From IMG/VR virus record IMGVR_UViG_3300028883_000033, positions 62,001 to 126,000 of that record: DNA of 64,000 nt. The stretch is one strand, 5' to 3'. The notes beneath the pieces were generated by a model. That model searched no databases. It worked only from the letters and a program-made list of their open reading frames with translations, and was not told the origin of the DNA. The position numbers were made by a program, and so were the translations under genes. Shown here in pieces: positions 19,677 through 51,929 of the stretch (position 1 is its first letter; each line of letters starts with the position of its first letter). Source of the stretch: a virus.

Positions 19677-20762
19677 TTACCCCAGGCGCCTAAGACCGGG
19701 GGCATAAGATGAAGATGATACCTGAGTTAGAACTGATTTTCTATGTCCTGATGAGTTTGTACTGATGTGAATCCATGGGTTTTTTCCGAACCACTCTAAG
19801 ATAATCTGATCGTAGTCAAAATTGTCACGAATGTACTGTGCCAGATCATAATATTGCTGTCCGGTATTTCCTGTTCCGTGGAATGAGAAGAACTGAAGAT
19901 CAGTAGCTTGACCCTTATTATGCTGGCTACCGCCTGATTTGTTACGCCACCCTGACGTTATAACAAAGGGAGGAACGTTGGAATCGGCACGCAGCGGCTC
20001 GAGAACAGTTTTTGCGTGGAAGCACAGGTTTTGCAGTATCTGCTTCTGTGATAAACCACATGGCTGTGTTACAGCAGACGAGAACCTGTATGTACTCACT
20101 GCAGGGCCAATTGTAAGATCATATGCTGTGTAATTTGCTGATAATGCAACGCTTGACGCAAACGTGTCAAAATCGGGGTATGGTGGAGATCCAGTTGCCC
20201 AGCTAAAGCTAGCACTGAGATTATCAATGTCTGTGCAATTTGCTGCGGGTGGTATATTAGGCGGAGGTTGAACTGAATCCTGTTCTTGCTCGGTTATGGG
20301 TTTTACCTCAGAACTTGTGAATACTGTTTCGGCACCAGGATTAATCTCTTCAGGAACGTCATTGTTTTCGAATACGTATCGATCTTGTTCGGTTGGAATT
20401 ATCTTTCGTCCAGTACCCAAAGTTATGATTGGTGCCCCTGCCAGTGGTTCGCTGTTATCGAAAATCGCACCGCCACCGCCTCCATCGGTGAATACATTAG
20501 GAGAGCCAGCAACTCGGGGGTGCCCGCACGTGTCTGGATCGCCAGCACTATTCACCGGAATGTTTTCAGCAAATACCGTAGGACCGCCGTTCGCGGTGTT
20601 GGGGGAGCAGTGGATATTGCCATTGCTACATGCGGCGTCGGGAGATACGGAAGACCCGTCCGTTGAAACCAGCAGATTGTTAGCATACACGGTTCCTTGT
20701 GTGGTTCCGGTGACTGAGCCACCAGCGCTATTGGAATCTGTTAATCTGTGAGTTCTTGGCAT
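19677..20762 (-). CDS. PAAR-repeat spike tip fused to M15 peptidase
   Basis: Residues about 10-95 contain PAAR-like repeats: short V...G turns, the pair TVFAENIPVNSAGDP and TCGHPRVAGSPNVFTDG, and cysteines. This is the pattern of the sharp cone that caps membrane-piercing spikes. A Pro/Glu-rich linker (about 100-175) leads to an M15/VanY-type zinc peptidase at about 235-345, with SQHNKGQATD supplying His281 and Asp288 and WIHIS supplying His332. M15 enzymes cleave peptidoglycan cross-links. An AGGAGC ribosome site lies ten bases before the ATG, and a late promoter (minus, 20789-20796) precedes it. Together this suggests a spike that both pierces and digests the envelope during infection. Tip and enzyme are separate genes in T4. 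Confidence 0.7.
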   Translation of the reverse strand: MPRTHRLTDSNSAGGSVTGTTQGTVYANNLLVSTDGSSVSPDAACSNGNIHCSPNTANGGPTVFAENIPVNSAGDPDTCGHPRVAGSPNVFTDGGGGGAIFDNSEPLAGAPIITLGTGRKIIPTEQDRYVFENNDVPEEINPGAETVFTSSEVKPITEQEQDSVQPPPNIPPAANCTDIDNLSASFSWATGSPPYPDFDTFASSVALSANYTAYDLTIGPAVSTYRFSSAVTQPCGLSQKQILQNLCFHAKTVLEPLRADSNVPPFVITSGWRNKSGGSQHNKGQATDLQFFSFHGTGNTGQQYYDLAQYIRDNFDYDQIILEWFGKNPWIHISTNSSGHRKSVLTQVSSSSYAPGLRRLG

Positions 20763-20835: not shown

Positions 20836-21294
20836 ATGAGCGGTCTAAAGGATATAGACAGTTGGCGCAAAGTACACCTAGCTGTCGCAGAATTTGTGGA
20901 TGCATGGCGAATAATTCCACGTGCCGTTGTTGTAGTGTTTAGTTATGGCGTATACGGCGTAACAACATGGTACATGAATCTAAAACCTTACATACTCGAA
21001 GGGTGTGTTAAGGCAGCAGAATCTGTTCCTACTGAGTGCATCGTTCAAGCCCCAACAACACAACATACAGCACTATTAACGGCAATGTTCGCGTTGGCGG
21101 CAGCGGTGTTCGCTTTTTATTCAAACAACGGTAGAAAGTGGAATGGATTTTCCCATTGGAATACCAACGAGTCGAAGACGTCAGAAAGTGTGTATTGGCG
21201 CGAGGGCGAAGAGAAGCCAGTTCAGGACGAGCGTAAGGACGCGGATCGTCAGGGCCGCGCTGTTATAGAGAATGCGCGCGGGAATGGCGGTTAA
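20836..21294 (+). CDS. Holin-like two-helix membrane protein (152 aa)
   Basis: The ATG at 20836 is preceded by TGGAGATGATAAA; the longer frame from 20761 has no ribosome site and would begin inside the divergent promoter region. Two hydrophobic helices are seen: IIPRAVVVVFSYGVYGVTTW and ALLTAMFALAAAVFAFYS. Between them is a short loop with PTTQHTA, and the charged C-terminal tail is typical of small phage membrane proteins. The pattern (DSWRK, DAWR.IPR, then PTTQ..A, then A..FA.Y.N.GRKW) recurs in many marine and soil phages and is sometimes annotated as holin. Its divergent pairing with a peptidoglycan peptidase fits lysis or entry, but the holin function is inference. Confidence 0.5.
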   Translation: MSGLKDIDSWRKVHLAVAEFVDAWRIIPRAVVVVFSYGVYGVTTWYMNLKPYILEGCVKAAESVPTECIVQAPTTQHTALLTAMFALAAAVFAFYSNNGRKWNGFSHWNTNESKTSESVYWREGEEKPVQDERKDADRQGRAVIENARGNGG

Positions 21295-27241: not shown

Positions 27242-27907
27242 TCATTTGTAGAATATGTGATCGTCAATTTGAGCAACCATTTCGTAGTCATCGCTCCAGT
27301 ACGGTGTCACATAATCAGCATGATAGTGAGTAGCACCTTCCGTGAAGTCGATGAAATTGTCAAGGGTGGCCCCGGCAAGCATAGCCTCCGCAATCTTGTA
27401 AATTTCCTCATATGCAGCTTTGTTGGCGATTTTGTCTGATTTGCCGTCAAGAGTCCAGGAAAAGTGTGCTGTCATTTTTCCTGTTTTTTTGCTACGTGCT
27501 TGGAACCAAACAACCTCACATATGCTATCTTTGAAGTGTTTGCTCTTGACGCGGTTGATGGTCGTTAGTCCAATTCCAACCTTGCCCTGCATGGACTGAT
27601 TCCGGCCCTCGAAGTATATGTTGTCTGCGAGACATTTGACCTCATCTTTTAGACTATCATATTTCCAACGCGATGCCTCAATAGGCACAGGTTCCCCGAA
27701 TGAGCCAGGCATATATGGGTGGACTTTGGGGTTGTCTGGAATTGGAACGATAATCATCGTCGGAGGACCAGCTGGTGGTGCTGAAACAGCAACAGCAATG
27801 CCGAACACGAAACCAACGAACATGAAAGCCAAAGCTACTAGGCTAGCCAATGTCCATTTAAGAGGACGTGAAAGAATCTCGTACCTGATTACAGGGGTCT
27901 TCACCAT
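27242..27907 (-). CDS. SleB-type cell wall hydrolase with N-terminal anchor
   Basis: Residues about 15-40 form one hydrophobic helix (LASLVALAFMFVGFVFGIAV), followed by a Pro-rich stretch. The C-terminal domain from about 90 matches the Hydrolase_2 (SleB/CwlJ) family: CLADNIYFEGRNQSMQGK with the catalytic Glu, IGLTTINRV, and GATHYHADYVTPYW. These enzymes cut peptidoglycan glycan strands. The single N-terminal helix without a clear cleavage site suggests a signal-arrest-release endolysin exported by the host Sec system. The ribosome site is GGAG. It is the likely lysis enzyme of this phage. Confidence 0.85.
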   Translation of the reverse strand: MVKTPVIRYEILSRPLKWTLASLVALAFMFVGFVFGIAVAVSAPPAGPPTMIIVPIPDNPKVHPYMPGSFGEPVPIEASRWKYDSLKDEVKCLADNIYFEGRNQSMQGKVGIGLTTINRVKSKHFKDSICEVVWFQARSKKTGKMTAHFSWTLDGKSDKIANKAAYEEIYKIAEAMLAGATLDNFIDFTEGATHYHADYVTPYWSDDYEMVAQIDDHIFYK

Positions 27908-44064: not shown

Positions 44065-46407
44065 ATGGTATTTGATGACTTGACCGTCACTAAGCGTGAC
44101 GGGCGCGTTGAACCTTTTGACCTAGAAAAGATTCACAAAGTGTTATTCTGGGCATGTGAAGACATAGCCAACGTGTCCGTATCGGAAATTGAAGTCCGAA
44201 CGCACATGCAACTGTACAACAAAATCCCCACTTCTGAGATCCATGAAACTATTATCAAGTCGGCCGCCGACCTGATATCTGAAGAATATCCTAATTATCA
44301 ATTTGTAGCAGCACGTTTGGTTCTGTTTACGCTGCGCAAACAGGTATATCATAGGTTTGAACCCCCATATCTCGTTGATCATGTTAAGAAGAACGTAGGC
44401 CTTGGAGTGTATGATGGGGCACTGTTGGACAAATACGATGAGTCTGAATGGGAAAAGCTCGATAAGATAGTAAACCACAATCGTGATTGGTTGTTGACAT
44501 ACGCCGCAACAGAACAATTCCGAGGAAAGTATCTTGTTCAAGATCGTACGACACATACGTATTATGAAACCCCTCAGATGGCGTATATCTTAATTGCAGC
44601 CACCCTTTTTGCTGATTATCCTAGTGACATTCGGCTGCAATATATCAAAGATTATTATGATGCAATCTCTAAAGGACCAAAGTCGACAATTACACTACCT
44701 ACGCCAATTCTCGCCGGCGTCCGCACGCCAACGCGTCAATTCAGTTCTTGTGTGTTAATTGAATCTGGTGACAGCCTTGACAGTATCAACGAAACTGCAT
44801 CGGCTATTGTGGATTATGCATCGCGCCGTGCTGGCATTGGCATTAACGCTGGTCGGATTCGCGCAAAAGGATCCAAAGTGCGAGGGGGTGAAATCTTTCA
44901 CACAGGTAACATTCCATTCTACAAATATTTCCATGCGGCACTGAAGTCCTGCTCACAGGGCGGTGTGCGTGGAGCTTCTGCCACTACATATTACCCTTTG
45001 TGGCACCTGGAAGCTGAAGATTTAATCGTTCTAAAGAACAACAAAGGAACAGACGAATCTCGTGTTCGTCACATGGACTATGGTGTTCAGCTGAACGGAT
45101 ACCTGTATCAGCGGTTGATCAAGAATGAACAAATTACTTTGTTCAGTCCTAATGAAGTTCCAGATCTGTATGACGCATTCTTTACTGACCAGAAAAAATT
45201 TGCCGAACTGTATGAAAAGTATGAGCGAGCGCATTCAGTCCGTAAAAAAGTAGTTCCAGCGCTTGAACATTTCAATAACATGTTAATAGAGCGCAATAAT
45301 ACAGGCCGCATTTACATCCACAATGTTGATCATACAAACGAGCACGGCGCCTTTTTGGACACCAGCCCGGTCCGTATGTCCAACCTATGTGTTGAAATTA
45401 CCCTACCAACCGAACAGCTAACACGCAAGAGTCGTATTCCGTTCATCAAGAAATTTGTAGAGGATGTGTGGGATCTGTCTTGTCAGGATTTTCGTAAGGA
45501 ATACGGTGAGATCGCTCTCTGTACCCTAAGTTCCCTCAACTGGGGCGCAATGTCTTCACCGGCTGATTTCGAAAAGCCAGCTGAGTTAGCAGTAAGAGCT
45601 CTTGAAGAGTTGTTGGATTATCAGGACTATCCTATGCTCGCAGCAGGTGTTCCAGCCAAGAAACGCAGATCGTTGGGGGTTGGCGTAAGTAACCTAGCGT
45701 ACTTCCTTGCTAAGCATGGCCGCAAATATTCTGATGGATCTGCGAATGACTTGGTTAATGAATATGCTGAAGCAATGTCGTACTATTTGATCAAAGCATC
45801 CGTCACGCTTGCCAAAGAAAAGGGCGCATGTGATTGGTTTGATGAAACCAAATATTCTAAGGGTATTCTTCCAATTGACACATATAAAGCGGCAGTTAAT
45901 GACATAGTCGGTTCTGAGCTAAAATGTGATTGGGAGGCTCTCAGAAAAGATATTGCCGAATTTGGTATGCGGCACTCAACACTGATGGCACTAATGCCTG
46001 TTGAATCTAGTTCACAGGTTATCAACGCTACAAACGGTATGGAGCCACCTCGAAGCATGGTATCAATTAAGGGATCTAAAGACGGAACACTCCGTCAAGT
46101 TGTTCCGGAGATTATGCGACTAAAGAACAAGTATGAGTACCTGTGGGATATGCCACATACTCGTGGCTACTTAGAAATCGCCGCTATATTCCAGAAATAT
46201 ACTGACCAGTCGATTTCCACCAATACATCATATAATCCAGCAAATTATCCAGGAAACAAGGTCCCGATGTCTGAACTAATAAAGGACCTAGTTTATGCAT
46301 ACAAGCTGGGCATTAAAACATTATATTACCAAAACACAGACGACGGCTCTGGCGACGTGTGGGATCCTGATAAGAAACAGGATGACTGCGAATCGTGCAA
46401 GCTGTAA
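44065..46407 (+). CDS. nrdA: Ribonucleotide reductase large subunit, class Ia
   Basis: This 780-residue protein has an N-terminal ATP-cone (VTKRDGRVEPFDLEKIHKVL) for dATP/ATP regulation. Active-site cysteines sit in FSSCVLIESGDS and SNLCVEITLP, the finger-loop segment is intact, and SSSQVINATNGMEPPRS is the substrate-binding signature. The C-terminal CESCKL pair accepts electrons from glutaredoxin, encoded two genes downstream. It reduces ribonucleoside diphosphates to deoxy forms for phage DNA synthesis. GGGAGCCGCATAG precedes the ATG. No intron, intein or split is seen, in contrast to several T4 relatives. Confidence 0.96.
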   Translation: MVFDDLTVTKRDGRVEPFDLEKIHKVLFWACEDIANVSVSEIEVRTHMQLYNKIPTSEIHETIIKSAADLISEEYPNYQFVAARLVLFTLRKQVYHRFEPPYLVDHVKKNVGLGVYDGALLDKYDESEWEKLDKIVNHNRDWLLTYAATEQFRGKYLVQDRTTHTYYETPQMAYILIAATLFADYPSDIRLQYIKDYYDAISKGPKSTITLPTPILAGVRTPTRQFSSCVLIESGDSLDSINETASAIVDYASRRAGIGINAGRIRAKGSKVRGGEIFHTGNIPFYKYFHAALKSCSQGGVRGASATTYYPLWHLEAEDLIVLKNNKGTDESRVRHMDYGVQLNGYLYQRLIKNEQITLFSPNEVPDLYDAFFTDQKKFAELYEKYERAHSVRKKVVPALEHFNNMLIERNNTGRIYIHNVDHTNEHGAFLDTSPVRMSNLCVEITLPTEQLTRKSRIPFIKKFVEDVWDLSCQDFRKEYGEIALCTLSSLNWGAMSSPADFEKPAELAVRALEELLDYQDYPMLAAGVPAKKRRSLGVGVSNLAYFLAKHGRKYSDGSANDLVNEYAEAMSYYLIKASVTLAKEKGACDWFDETKYSKGILPIDTYKAAVNDIVGSELKCDWEALRKDIAEFGMRHSTLMALMPVESSSQVINATNGMEPPRSMVSIKGSKDGTLRQVVPEIMRLKNKYEYLWDMPHTRGYLEIAAIFQKYTDQSISTNTSYNPANYPGNKVPMSELIKDLVYAYKLGIKTLYYQNTDDGSGDVWDPDKKQDDCESCKL

Positions 46408-46419
46408 GAGGATAGAGAC

Positions 46420-47541
46420 ATGACAAGTGTAGTTTTTAATCAGGATGCTACTGACCATCTCAAGGCAAAATTATTCCTTGATGAAGGTGGAAACCCTGAA
46501 ATTCAGCGGTACGAACAAGTACGCTACGACACGTTGGAAAATTTTGTTGATAAGCAGCTGAGTTTTTTCTGGCGCCCTGAAGAAGTCGACCTATCGAAAG
46601 ATAAGAACGACTTCCGTGATTTGCCGGAAGCTCAACAGCATATTTTTACGTCGAATCTATTCCGTCAGATCCTCCTAGACAGTGTCCAGGGCCGCGGCCC
46701 TAATATGACGCTGTTGCCGATCTGTTCTCTGCCAGAAATGGAAGATTGGATCACGAACTGGTCCTTCAATGAGACGCTACATTCGCGTGCATACACCCAC
46801 GTTATCCGCAATGTATATTCAAACCCATCGCAAGTGATTGACGAAATTACGAAGATTCCCGAGATCCTGCAATGTGCCGCTGCTGTATCCAAGCACTACG
46901 ATCAGCTGGCATATTGGAACGCAATCTGGCAAGCACGCCGGTTGGGCGTTGATGTTAATTCAGCATATGACGAATACGAACACAAGAAGTCGCTGTGGAT
47001 GACTTTAAATTCTATCAATGCTCTGGAAGGTCTTCGGTTTTATGTATCGTTCGCATGCTCGTGGAATTTCGCCGAACAGAAAAAGATGGAAGGAAATGCA
47101 AAAATTATCCGATTGATTTGTCGGGATGAAAATCTGCATCTCGGCAGCACACAATATATACTACGTACCCTTCCTAAGGATGACAAAATATACAAGGATA
47201 TTGCTGCAAAAACAAAAGATGATGTAATGCAGTTATTCTTGGATGTTGTCCAGCAGGAGAAGGACTGGGCCACATACCTGTTCAAGTACGGCTCGATGAT
47301 TGGATTGAATGCTGAGATTCTTCATCAGTACGTGGAGTGGATTGCTTCTCGCCGTATGAGAACAATCGATTTGGACGTACCGTTCAATCATCCAACATCT
47401 GATCCACTACCTTGGACGAAAAACTGGATTTCTGGCAAAGAAGTGCAGTATGCCCCACAAGAATCGGAGATTGCGTCCTACTTGATCTCCGATGTTGAAC
47501 AAGACGTTGACGCATCCACACTGGATGGACTAAGTTTATAA
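46420..47541 (+). CDS. nrdB: Ribonucleotide reductase small subunit, class Ia
   Basis: This 373-residue di-iron radical subunit has LLDSVQGRGPN and SFNETLHSRAYTH, containing metal ligands and the radical tyrosine, as in E. coli NrdB. The later ligands are in CRDENLHLGSTQ. It pairs with NrdA, twelve bases upstream. AGAGGATAGAGAC is the ribosome site. No intron is present. Confidence 0.95.
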   Translation: MTSVVFNQDATDHLKAKLFLDEGGNPEIQRYEQVRYDTLENFVDKQLSFFWRPEEVDLSKDKNDFRDLPEAQQHIFTSNLFRQILLDSVQGRGPNMTLLPICSLPEMEDWITNWSFNETLHSRAYTHVIRNVYSNPSQVIDEITKIPEILQCAAAVSKHYDQLAYWNAIWQARRLGVDVNSAYDEYEHKKSLWMTLNSINALEGLRFYVSFACSWNFAEQKKMEGNAKIIRLICRDENLHLGSTQYILRTLPKDDKIYKDIAAKTKDDVMQLFLDVVQQEKDWATYLFKYGSMIGLNAEILHQYVEWIASRRMRTIDLDVPFNHPTSDPLPWTKNWISGKEVQYAPQESEIASYLISDVEQDVDASTLDGLSL

Positions 47542-49738: not shown

Positions 49739-51074
49739 ACTTTTTCTTCCTGTAGTTTGTAAGAACGTCTTTGAGTTCTTCAACGTAGACGTCCTTTCGC
49801 CTTTTTGGTGACTTGAGCAGCGACCGGTATTCCTTCATCAGAGCTTCAGCATCTTTCAGTTTCTGCTCCACCTTATTCTTCTCTTCTTCGGTGAAACGGT
49901 AAACAGGAAGATCGGCGATGTAGTCAATATAAACAATACCAATTTCCGTCAGGAACTCTTTGAGTTCGGACCGCGACCCAATTTTCTTCGCAACACCGCC
50001 CACGTTGCGGTTAATGGCTCGAAGTACATCTTTGTAGCGTTGGATATCAATTTCCAAAAGCCCGGCCAATCGTTCGTATCGTTTGACATACCAGCTTAAC
50101 CTCCAATCACAGAAATCTTGAATGATTTCTTGATAGTTAGTTGACCATACACTCTCGCCGTCAAAGTTAATGACGTTCATGTTTTCGCCAACGTTGTTTA
50201 ACAAACCCAAATAATTCAGAACGCCCATCTCATCTTTCATGGATTCATGTGATAGTGTTCCTTTTTTAAAGCGAACCTCGATGTTGTATGAGTCTCGAGA
50301 GTTGTCAGTATATTCCTGAATCTTTCCATCTTCCTCGAGCTTGTTGAGTTTCTCAACGTACTTTTCGTGAGTGGTTCCGTATGGAAGATTGGTAATACGA
50401 ATGGTTGTTGCATTAACCTTTTCATATTCGCCCAGGAAGGTATACTTGTACCCGCCAGTGCCAGTTTCTACCCAATCAACCGCCTTCTGTTTAATCGGAA
50501 CGAGCTCGGGCAGGTCTTCGTAAAAATCTCTACCTTCAAGATAATCTATTTGAGCCTTAATGATGCTGGGGAGGGAACGGGGGAGAATGCTCGAAGCAAA
50601 ACCTACTGCGATACCGTCTTGCGGATTCAGGAGGACAATAGGGATAAGCGGTAGGAAATGCTTCGGCTCCTCTAAAGTGCCATCATAATTTTCTTGCAGG
50701 GGAACTATTTCAATGTCACGAAAAACAACATCCTTTGTAAACTCACTAACCTTGACGCTAGTGTATCGAGCAGCACCATATGCTGTGGGCGCGAGCAGCG
50801 TACCGAATGCACCATCTCCATTAAGGAGTGGAATGTTGTTGCCGTAGGGAGCAGCTAATGTGTTAACAGCCCCCTCAGGAGATTGGTGAGGATGGATAGG
50901 CATTGTTGCGCCAGCAAGCGTTGCAGACTTGAACTTGCTTCCGTTTCTAGCTGTCCACAGCACTCTTCGCGCAGCAGCCTTTAGTCCATCCGCTGCGTGA
51001 GGAATAGCTCTCGATTGTAGAACGTATAGTGAATAATCTCTACGTTCATTGTTCACATATTCAGAACTTTTCAT
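49728..51074 (-). CDS. 52: Type II topoisomerase, DNA-cleaving subunit (gp52-like)
   Basis: This 448-residue protein matches T4 gp52 (442). The winged-helix catalytic part shows the DNA-binding segment ADGLKAAARRVLW and AYGAARYTSVKV with Tyr104, which attaches to DNA. The tower and coiled-coil regions follow (IVLLNPQDGIAVGFASS is the conserved glycine segment). With the ATPase subunit at 52.8-54.7 kb it relaxes and untangles phage DNA. The start overlaps the small upstream gene (ATGA). Confidence 0.93.
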   Translation of the reverse strand: MKSSEYVNNERRDYSLYVLQSRAIPHAADGLKAAARRVLWTARNGSKFKSATLAGATMPIHPHQSPEGAVNTLAAPYGNNIPLLNGDGAFGTLLAPTAYGAARYTSVKVSEFTKDVVFRDIEIVPLQENYDGTLEEPKHFLPLIPIVLLNPQDGIAVGFASSILPRSLPSIIKAQIDYLEGRDFYEDLPELVPIKQKAVDWVETGTGGYKYTFLGEYEKVNATTIRITNLPYGTTHEKYVEKLNKLEEDGKIQEYTDNSRDSYNIEVRFKKGTLSHESMKDEMGVLNYLGLLNNVGENMNVINFDGESVWSTNYQEIIQDFCDWRLSWYVKRYERLAGLLEIDIQRYKDVLRAINRNVGGVAKKIGSRSELKEFLTEIGIVYIDYIADLPVYRFTEEEKNKVEQKLKDAEALMKEYRSLLKSPKRRKDVYVEELKDVLTNYRKKKYDV

Positions 51075-51265
51075 AAGATTGTCATAGCTCTATCATAATC
51101 ATCTTCAGGATCGTGCGAATGTTGCCTGAGGTACCTAGTCAGCCGATCAGCCATTTCGGCATGCTGTTCATCTCGAACTTCTTCGATAAATTCAAGAACA
51201 TCATCAGGTACGTGGTCGACACCATTCAATTCAATTTCGGTTGAGATAACTAGTTTAACTGACAT
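51071..51265 (-). CDS. Hypothetical acidic protein (64 aa)
   Basis: The start ATG at 51265 lies inside the end of the phosphoesterase gene, with GGGAG 11 bases upstream. The protein is acidic with one strand and a long helix (PDDVLEFIEEVRDEQHAEMA). It overlaps the topoisomerase start by four bases. No family is recognised. Confidence 0.5.
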   Translation of the reverse strand: MSVKLVISTEIELNGVDHVPDDVLEFIEEVRDEQHAEMADRLTRYLRQHSHDPEDDYDRAMTIL

Positions 51266-51929
51266 GTTCCATACTCTCCCATCGCGTTCTTGCAATTTCT
51301 ATCAAGCGGTGCCAATGCATTGGCTTATATTCGATAACCTCTACGCTAACATTTATGTGTCGTAGGCTGTTGGTGTCATACGCGTTGTGGATGTGTCCAT
51401 GAACATTAATCCAATCAGCTGGGCAGGTTTCGAACGGGAAGTGCGTAAACACCAAAGGTGGGCTCAACCCAGGGAGTGCGTAGATTAGATGTTTTTCCTT
51501 GAAGTGAAGATTCTTAACTTTACCTTTATTGATATCGTGGTTGCCAATAATAAGGATTCTATCGCCGTTGAGATTAGCAAGGATTTCATTTGCCCGCTGA
51601 TCCCCCATAAACGCAACGTCGCCAACCCATATGACAAGATCATCATCTCCAACCGTTTCGTTGTGATTTGTAATCAGTTGTTGAGACATATCATCTAAAT
51701 CGCAGAAAGGACGGTTGCAGTACTTGATGATATTTTTGTGTCCGAAGTGAGTATCACTCCACACCCAAATATTTTCATATTGAGGAGTGTGGTCAGCTTC
51801 CATTAGAGGAATTTGTTCGTAATGTGATACCTTTCGTACGCGCGGTCGCTTAGTCTTTCCACCATCATAAGAAACAAGTTTCTTTAGATCGTCTATGTAT
51901 AACTGACGTAAATGTTCAATCTCGTTCAT
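51255..51929 (-). CDS. Calcineurin-like metallophosphoesterase
   Basis: The start at 51929 lies two bases after the previous stop. The full set of metallophosphoesterase motifs is present: VWSDTHFGHKN, VGDVAFMGD, IIGNHD, FTHFPFE and HGHIHN. An N-terminal extension of about 60 residues precedes the domain. Members hydrolyse phosphodiesters or nucleotides with two metal ions. The substrate here is unknown; RNA repair or cyclic-nucleotide turnover are options. Confidence 0.85.
   Translation of the reverse strand: MNEIEHLRQLYIDDLKKLVSYDGGKTKRPRVRKVSHYEQIPLMEADHTPQYENIWVWSDTHFGHKNIIKYCNRPFCDLDDMSQQLITNHNETVGDDDLVIWVGDVAFMGDQRANEILANLNGDRILIIGNHDINKGKVKNLHFKEKHLIYALPGLSPPLVFTHFPFETCPADWINVHGHIHNAYDTNSLRHINVSVEVIEYKPMHWHRLIEIARTRWESMEHVS

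Follow-up and report, generated by a model that had tools for sequence, protein, structure and literature searches.

The open reading frame analysed here raises the question of whether a phage has placed a cell wall enzyme on the very tip of its tail spike, or whether the gene encodes an enzyme used elsewhere in infection. The window is the whole stretch of 64,000 nucleotides that was analysed, bases 62001-126000 of the 147,644-base IMG/VR record G000, which is possibly a fragment. The initial annotation had described a single protein (P0001 in this work) combining PAAR-like repeats with an M15 zinc peptidase, and had seen in it a self-contained piercing and digesting spike tip. The extent given there for the open reading frame was exact, and the gene lies on the minus strand (Table 1).

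Table 1. Features of the P0001 locus and of a second wall enzyme gene, in positions of the window.
Feature	Position	Strand	Size or basis
P0001 (PAAR-M15 fusion gene)	19677..20762	minus	361 aa
PAAR cone of P0001, residues 2-94	20481..20759	minus	VIA-align and phrog_281
Low-confidence linker of P0001, residues 95-168	20259..20480	minus	pLDDT <50 in residues 94-133 and 135-168
M15-type zinc peptidase domain of P0001, residues 169-359	19686..20258	minus	1lbu (Z 9.7) and conserved residues
M15 residues His281, Asp288, Glu323 and His332 of P0001		minus	at least 90% conserved in alignment A4
AGGAG, likely ribosome-binding site of P0001	20774..20778	minus	read from the sequence
ATAAATA, presumed T4-type late-promoter core, 33 nt ahead of the P0001 start codon	20789..20795	minus	
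Gene downstream of P0001	19049..19591	minus	180 aa, counted from the first ATG
Small divergent protein beside P0001	20836..21294	plus	phrog_10198; hydrophobic stretches by eye
Separate endolysin-like enzyme	27242..27907	minus	hydrophobic N-terminus (by eye) and Hydrolase_2, E 1e-18

The PAAR family phrog_281 (PHROGs) matched residues 11-110 of P0001 (E 8.6e-9). The Pfam PAAR motif PF05488 scored 19.2 bits on P0001, below its cut-off of 27, and the relatives L023, L025, L037 and L065 exceed this cut-off. An AlphaFold2 model of P0001 was built from a 35-row alignment (mean pLDDT 71.7, residues 94-168 mostly below 50). Its first 94 residues aligned to six PAAR structures with Z-scores of 11.7-14.3 in VIA-align, among them 6p1z (phiKZ gp163.1, 14.3), 4jiw (13.7), 4jiv (13.4) and 4ku0 (T4 gp5.4, 13.2); the six derive from phiKZ, E. 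coli c1882, V. cholerae VCA0105, T4, KP1 and P1. The same six entries and 1lbu formed the top seven rows of a Foldseek search with the model, at modest E-values (2.7e-4 for 4jiw, 2.2e-3 for 1lbu). PAAR chains were also found in the PDB by profile A4 (4jiw, E 9e-9; T4 gp5.4, E 0.003). Six residues of the cone (His5, Cys45, His51, Cys52, Cys79 and His81) are invariant across three close sequences only. The PAAR-like N-terminus first proposed is thus borne out by the predicted fold and by the family match.

The C-terminal half was assigned to the M15 peptidases by structure and by conserved residues. Residues 169-359 of the model aligned to the zinc DD-peptidase of Streptomyces albus, 1lbu (Z 9.7, 127 aligned residues, rmsd 3.3), and phrog_894, an 'endolysin' family of PHROGs, matched residues 232-358 (E 4e-10). 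Arg273, His281, Asp288, Glu323 and His332 are conserved at 90% or more in the 35-row alignment A4, which spans PAAR-fused, gp5-fused and other M15 domains; His281, Asp288 and His332 had been named in the initial annotation and their positions were right. The Pfam M15 models gave no match to P0001, and PF08291 matched relatives of the same architecture below its cut-off of 23.2 bits only (best L065, 22.6 bits). This Pfam result and the appearance of Hedgehog signalling domains in the VIA-align ranking (Z 5-5.7) would suit an inactive M15 domain that only binds the wall. We consider such a loss of activity very unlikely, as the zinc ligands and the glutamate are conserved and the enzyme 1lbu scores far above the Hedgehog chains. 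OB, helix or lysozyme families had no match in P0001 (Pfam, PHROGs).

Record G000 belongs to a large myovirus. Its DNA polymerase is closest to those of the jumbo phages XacN1 (46%) and CM1/RAS14 (44%), and tail tube, sheath, portal, major head protein and baseplate hub protein were identified. A gp5-like spike, sought with or without a lysozyme, was found at record position 50291-51871, followed by gp25- and gp6-like genes. It consists of an OB domain and a DUF2345 beta-helix, and no enzyme domain was recognised on scanning it. Since neither this gp5 carries a recognised enzyme domain nor P0001 matches OB, helix or lysozyme families, P0001 is not a tail lysozyme of the T4 gp5 type. Phage_lysozyme, Amidase_2, M23 and SLT_3 were sought across the whole record and gave no match, and phrog_894 and A4 found no second M15 of the P0001 kind. 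Peptidase_M15_3 likewise had no match in the record; this null is uninformative on other M15 domains, because the M15 of P0001 itself escapes that search. The absence of further wall enzymes is provisional, because the record may be incomplete.

Some 30 kb of the record separate P0001 from gp5, and the gene is outside the baseplate cluster, which speaks against a place on the spike. The M15 half of P0001 matches a family named for endolysins. P0001 could be the lysis endolysin of the phage, with the PAAR part as a leftover or as an export or anchoring device, and the small divergent neighbour with hydrophobic stretches could be its holin (by eye). XacN1 and RAS14 have a similar divergent open reading frame in the matching slot (by eye). 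Against this reading, the Hydrolase_2 enzyme with a hydrophobic N-terminus (Table 1) argues against P0001 as the sole lysis enzyme, the PAAR fold of P0001 is intact in the model, and the corresponding genes of several relatives are located inside baseplate operons. A role as lysis endolysin therefore appears unlikely.

Expression was approached through the heptamer ATAAATA, taken as the T4 late-promoter core. In the whole record, window included, it is the most frequent 7-mer at 19-46 nt ahead of open reading frames of at least 80 aa (20 of 139); in 2000 shifted controls its count averaged 0.44 and never rose above 4. The 20 genes include those for tail tube, portal, baseplate hub and gp25-like proteins, and P0001 (at -33). 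The sheath gene has the heptamer at -59, and the major head protein gene has none within 100 nt. A caspase gene is also preceded by it, and ATAAATA does not mark virion genes cleanly. No signal was seen for the exact T4 late promoter TATAAATA in the window alone (3 matches vs. 2.3 expected); the signal emerged with the shorter core over the whole record. Ahead of P0001 the heptamer makes up one half of a near-palindrome, which faces the divergent gene at 20836 as well. None of the PAAR genes of the relatives (0 of 21) had ATAAATA within 100 nt upstream, nor did these genes have a motif of their own. P0001 is probably a late gene, judging by its upstream sequence. Late expression is typical of virion and lysis genes alike, and a late promoter suits a lysis role too. 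The downstream gene, a conserved neighbour (53% identity over 122 aa in L023, related open reading frames in XacN1, CM1 and RAS14), is probably co-transcribed with P0001. The caspase gene lies beyond the window, at record 145999-147075 on the minus strand (L014:5999-7075), and encodes a 358-aa protein with a Peptidase_C14 domain (E 2e-35); with ATAAATA at -38, it may be a late-expressed caspase-like phage protein.

The reading we prefer, and regard as likely, is that P0001 is the tip of the central spike of a large T4-related myovirus and carries a wall peptidase. We infer its position in the virion, a single copy per particle, its enzymatic activity, the bond cut and its use at entry; computed are the two folds, the conserved active-site residues, the late-promoter core, the gp5 without a recognised enzyme and the separate endolysin-like enzyme. 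One copy of the PAAR cone would cap the end of the trimeric gp5 beta-helix, and the M15 zinc peptidase would hang from this cone by a flexible linker of about 75 residues. When the tail contracts, the cone would breach the outer membrane, and the tethered peptidase would then cut peptide links of the peptidoglycan and let the tube pass, doing the job of the lysozyme of T4 gp5. To call such a tip 'self-contained' was an overstatement, as a PAAR cone is a cap and needs the gp5 helix as its base.

In T4, the lysozyme domain sits inside gp5. T4 gp5.4 and the T6SS PAARs are the paradigm for such cones, reportedly since the work of Shneider et al. in 2013. T4 gp5.4 and phiKZ gp163.1 have a PAAR fold like that of residues 2-94 of P0001, and the record also has a gp5-type spike of OB domain and beta-helix. 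However, the 97 aa of T4 gp5.4 form a bare cone, whereas P0001 has a peptidase fused behind the cone. The T4 gp5 lysozyme and P0001 share a presumed job, the opening of peptidoglycan during passage of the tail tube, but the enzyme is part of gp5 in T4 and an M15 domain on the predicted tip here, where gp5 has no recognised enzyme. T6SS PAAR proteins combine a cone with covalently attached enzyme extensions; P0001 is likewise a fusion, but has a phage gene set around it and bears a wall enzyme. If confirmed, this arrangement would put a wall enzyme on a monomeric needle point rather than on a trimeric shaft, altering how many enzyme copies there are and when the wall is breached, and would suggest that PAAR-tip cargo is not exclusively a T6SS invention.

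The architecture was also found in other phages. A tblastn search with P0001 matched 123 phage records, in 13 of which at least 80% of the protein was covered in one place. PAAR-M15 fusions were read in PA5oct (EST35_0245), in 1.244.A and 207E48.1 (Vibrio Ackermannviridae), in the P. putida phage Peetri, in Astolliot (Otagovirus), in Milchi and in IMG/VR loci. PA5oct EST35_0245 and its homologues in the named phages have the same architecture as P0001 at about 28-33% identity, and are annotated variously as hub/lysozyme, PAAR motif, endolysin or hypothetical. The fusion is, on sequence, not unique to this record and is present, poorly annotated, in deposited phages. In 1.244.A, Peetri, Astolliot and Milchi the gene is located between gp5 and a baseplate-wedge gene, and in 207E48.1 it is just behind gp5. 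The PA5oct gene lies behind nrdA-nrdB, whereas in the window the nrdA-nrdB-like open reading frames (44065-47541) are far from P0001. PAAR-enzyme genes shortly behind nrdA-nrdB were seen, besides PA5oct, at 11 of the 18 viral-contig loci examined (L001, L002, L020, L021, L027, L037-L039, L042, L052 and L065; L037-L039 are near copies). The note 'ESI-MS/MS' on the PA5oct homologue was rejected as proof of a virion protein, the adjoining nrdA and nrdB bearing an identical note. At L001:4123-4431, just before the PAAR gene, a 102-aa protein is encoded, and at other loci of the nrdA-nrdB type proteins with similar C-termini were seen by eye, likewise immediately ahead of the PAAR gene.

The M15 family of P0001 also occurs on other carriers. 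In Caulobacter phage Cr30, Methylophilales phage Melnitz and pf16 it is found at the C-terminus of gp5, and in Cr30 and Melnitz a bare PAAR gene follows directly downstream. These two phages share the M15 family with P0001 at the tail spike, but have it on gp5, presumably in three copies per spike, with a separate PAAR, whereas P0001 has it on the PAAR protein. At some other loci the M15 domain is on proteins without a recognised tail domain. In the M15 proteins of about 300 aa at L094:3072-3956, L095:4524-5471 and L072:4177-5079, the N-terminal stretch resembles half a PAAR repeat (by eye). A scan of bacterial genomes yielded nine distant M15 loci, which match only beyond residue 200.

A comparative study of 224 jumbo phages (PMC7824862) describes the PAAR proteins of jumbo myoviruses as standalone, with no effector domain fused to them, and takes this as the ancestral state; the PAAR-M15 phages reported here would be exceptions to that rule as given there. 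The terms M15, M23, VanY and peptidoglycan are absent from the main text of a PAAR survey (PMC8651086), and an engineering paper (PMC12173070) describes phage PAAR proteins joined artificially to wall-lytic domains. The literature searched, in which subscription journals are mostly outside coverage, yielded no paper on a PAAR-M15 protein occurring naturally in a phage. The architecture is thus deposited in databases, though apparently without a published description.

Is the enzyme on the tip a substitute for one on gp5? Among 11 scanned PAAR-M15 phages, gp5 had no enzyme domain in nine (this record, G004, PA5oct, 1.244.A, 207E48.1, Peetri, Astolliot, L032 and L035), several of which are close kin and so do not count as nine independent cases; the 11 do not include L025, L027, L033, L034, L042, L052, L065 and Milchi. 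The other two gp5s carry an enzyme, M15_4 in G006/L037 and Hydrolase_2 in G008/L055, the latter a phage whose PAAR-like N-terminus is short and missed by phrog_281. Strict complementarity, in which PAAR enzymes would be confined to phages whose gp5 lacks one, had been expected and was rejected on these two cases. Judging from these genes, the tip enzyme would often, not always, replace that of gp5, and the relation is not a simple replacement.

The complete genomes of XacN1 and RAS14 had no match to phrog_281 or A4, and the open reading frames in the slot corresponding to P0001 matched no PAAR or M15 family. Their gp5s bear an SLT_3 lysozyme-like domain, and the gene after gp5 in XacN1 encodes an M23 peptidase. 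Such a tip may, by these genomes, be dispensable in the XacN1/RAS14 group, and tail-tip wall enzymes appear to be exchanged within one phage group. The last 77 residues of the gp5 of record G000 match the C-terminus of the XacN1 M23 protein (42%, E 2e-6), and its residues 454-525 match the corresponding RAS14 gene product (38%, E 6e-5). This tail, with an HEPW motif, is on gp5 in record G000 (L011:10291-11871) and in XacN1 on the neighbouring M23 peptidase (L104:7902-11536), not on its gp5.

What is new here is that cone and enzyme seem, from their sequences, to shuffle. L023 comes from the nearest relative, record G004, and shares its gene order with the window (identities of 54% for the polymerase, 49% for the clamp, 60% for the RNase H-like protein, 53% for the downstream gene and 64% for a further gene); the gp5 of G004 is 43% identical to that of record G000, with no enzyme domain, and the PAAR-M15 gene of L023 occupies the same place as P0001. 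The M15 halves of the two proteins are 60% identical, while the cones differ in type and are about 27% identical over 83 residues. The P0001 cone shares 53% identity with the cone of L001, an 823-aa protein in which M23 precedes the cone and CHAP follows it, and the L023 cone is nearest, within the compared set, to that of PA5oct. For this one pair of loci we favour recombination that exchanged the cone, because faster evolution of the cone would not explain the 53% match to L001, an otherwise different protein.

The M23-PAAR-CHAP proteins of the IMG/VR contigs L001, L002, L020 and L021 had the closest PAAR domains found (48-53% identity across the entire cone in L001, L002 and L020). M23 and CHAP flank the cone in L001 and L020, as against M15 in P0001; in L021 CHAP was just under the cut-off. 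The proximity of the P0001 cone to that of L001 resembles the swapping of T6SS cargo, and would also fit a C-terminal domain that is a payload like those of T6SS PAAR effectors. Delivered to the periplasm by the cone, it would detach there or attack the host wall once entry is over, perhaps to exclude other phages. We hold this to be quite unlikely, for the payload domains recognised (M15, M23 and CHAP) are wall hydrolases, for which a role at entry suffices. Returning to the spike tip with an entry enzyme, the PAAR cone of large myoviruses might serve as an interchangeable carrier of enzymes, the linker being the place where cone and wall enzyme recombine, a proposal to which we give an even chance. 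Were it true, a change of enzyme on the needle point would let phages retune how they breach the wall, much as T6SS changes its warheads, and some may depend on a single enzyme copy per virion. PAAR-tip enzymes would, if confirmed, be a natural set of swappable wall-lytic modules.

A tree of the M15 domains (64 rows, from 89 domains, 68 of them distinct, with four long rows dropped) bears on the origin of the fusion. The pf16 copy L031 and the stop-broken L085 were excluded, the fragments L045, L064, L082 and L090 were unlabelled, and the carrier labels of several gp5 fusions were assigned by hand. On this tree the carrier changes six times (the minimum possible is two), the PAAR label needs four changes, and none of 200 bootstrap trees unites the PAAR fusions on one branch. 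The well-supported branches alone force only one PAAR change, so the tree is compatible with a single origin.

At L021:3723-6737, a tip protein of 1004 aa has M23 and a CHAP-like domain, and an inserted module splits its PAAR cone between the two halves. This module was considered as a source of further cone fusions and rejected, as cone pieces were found only on L021's own contig (L130), one of 59 loci. It has the pattern H-x3-R-A-x-D...H-x-H and occurs otherwise in proteins without cone matches.
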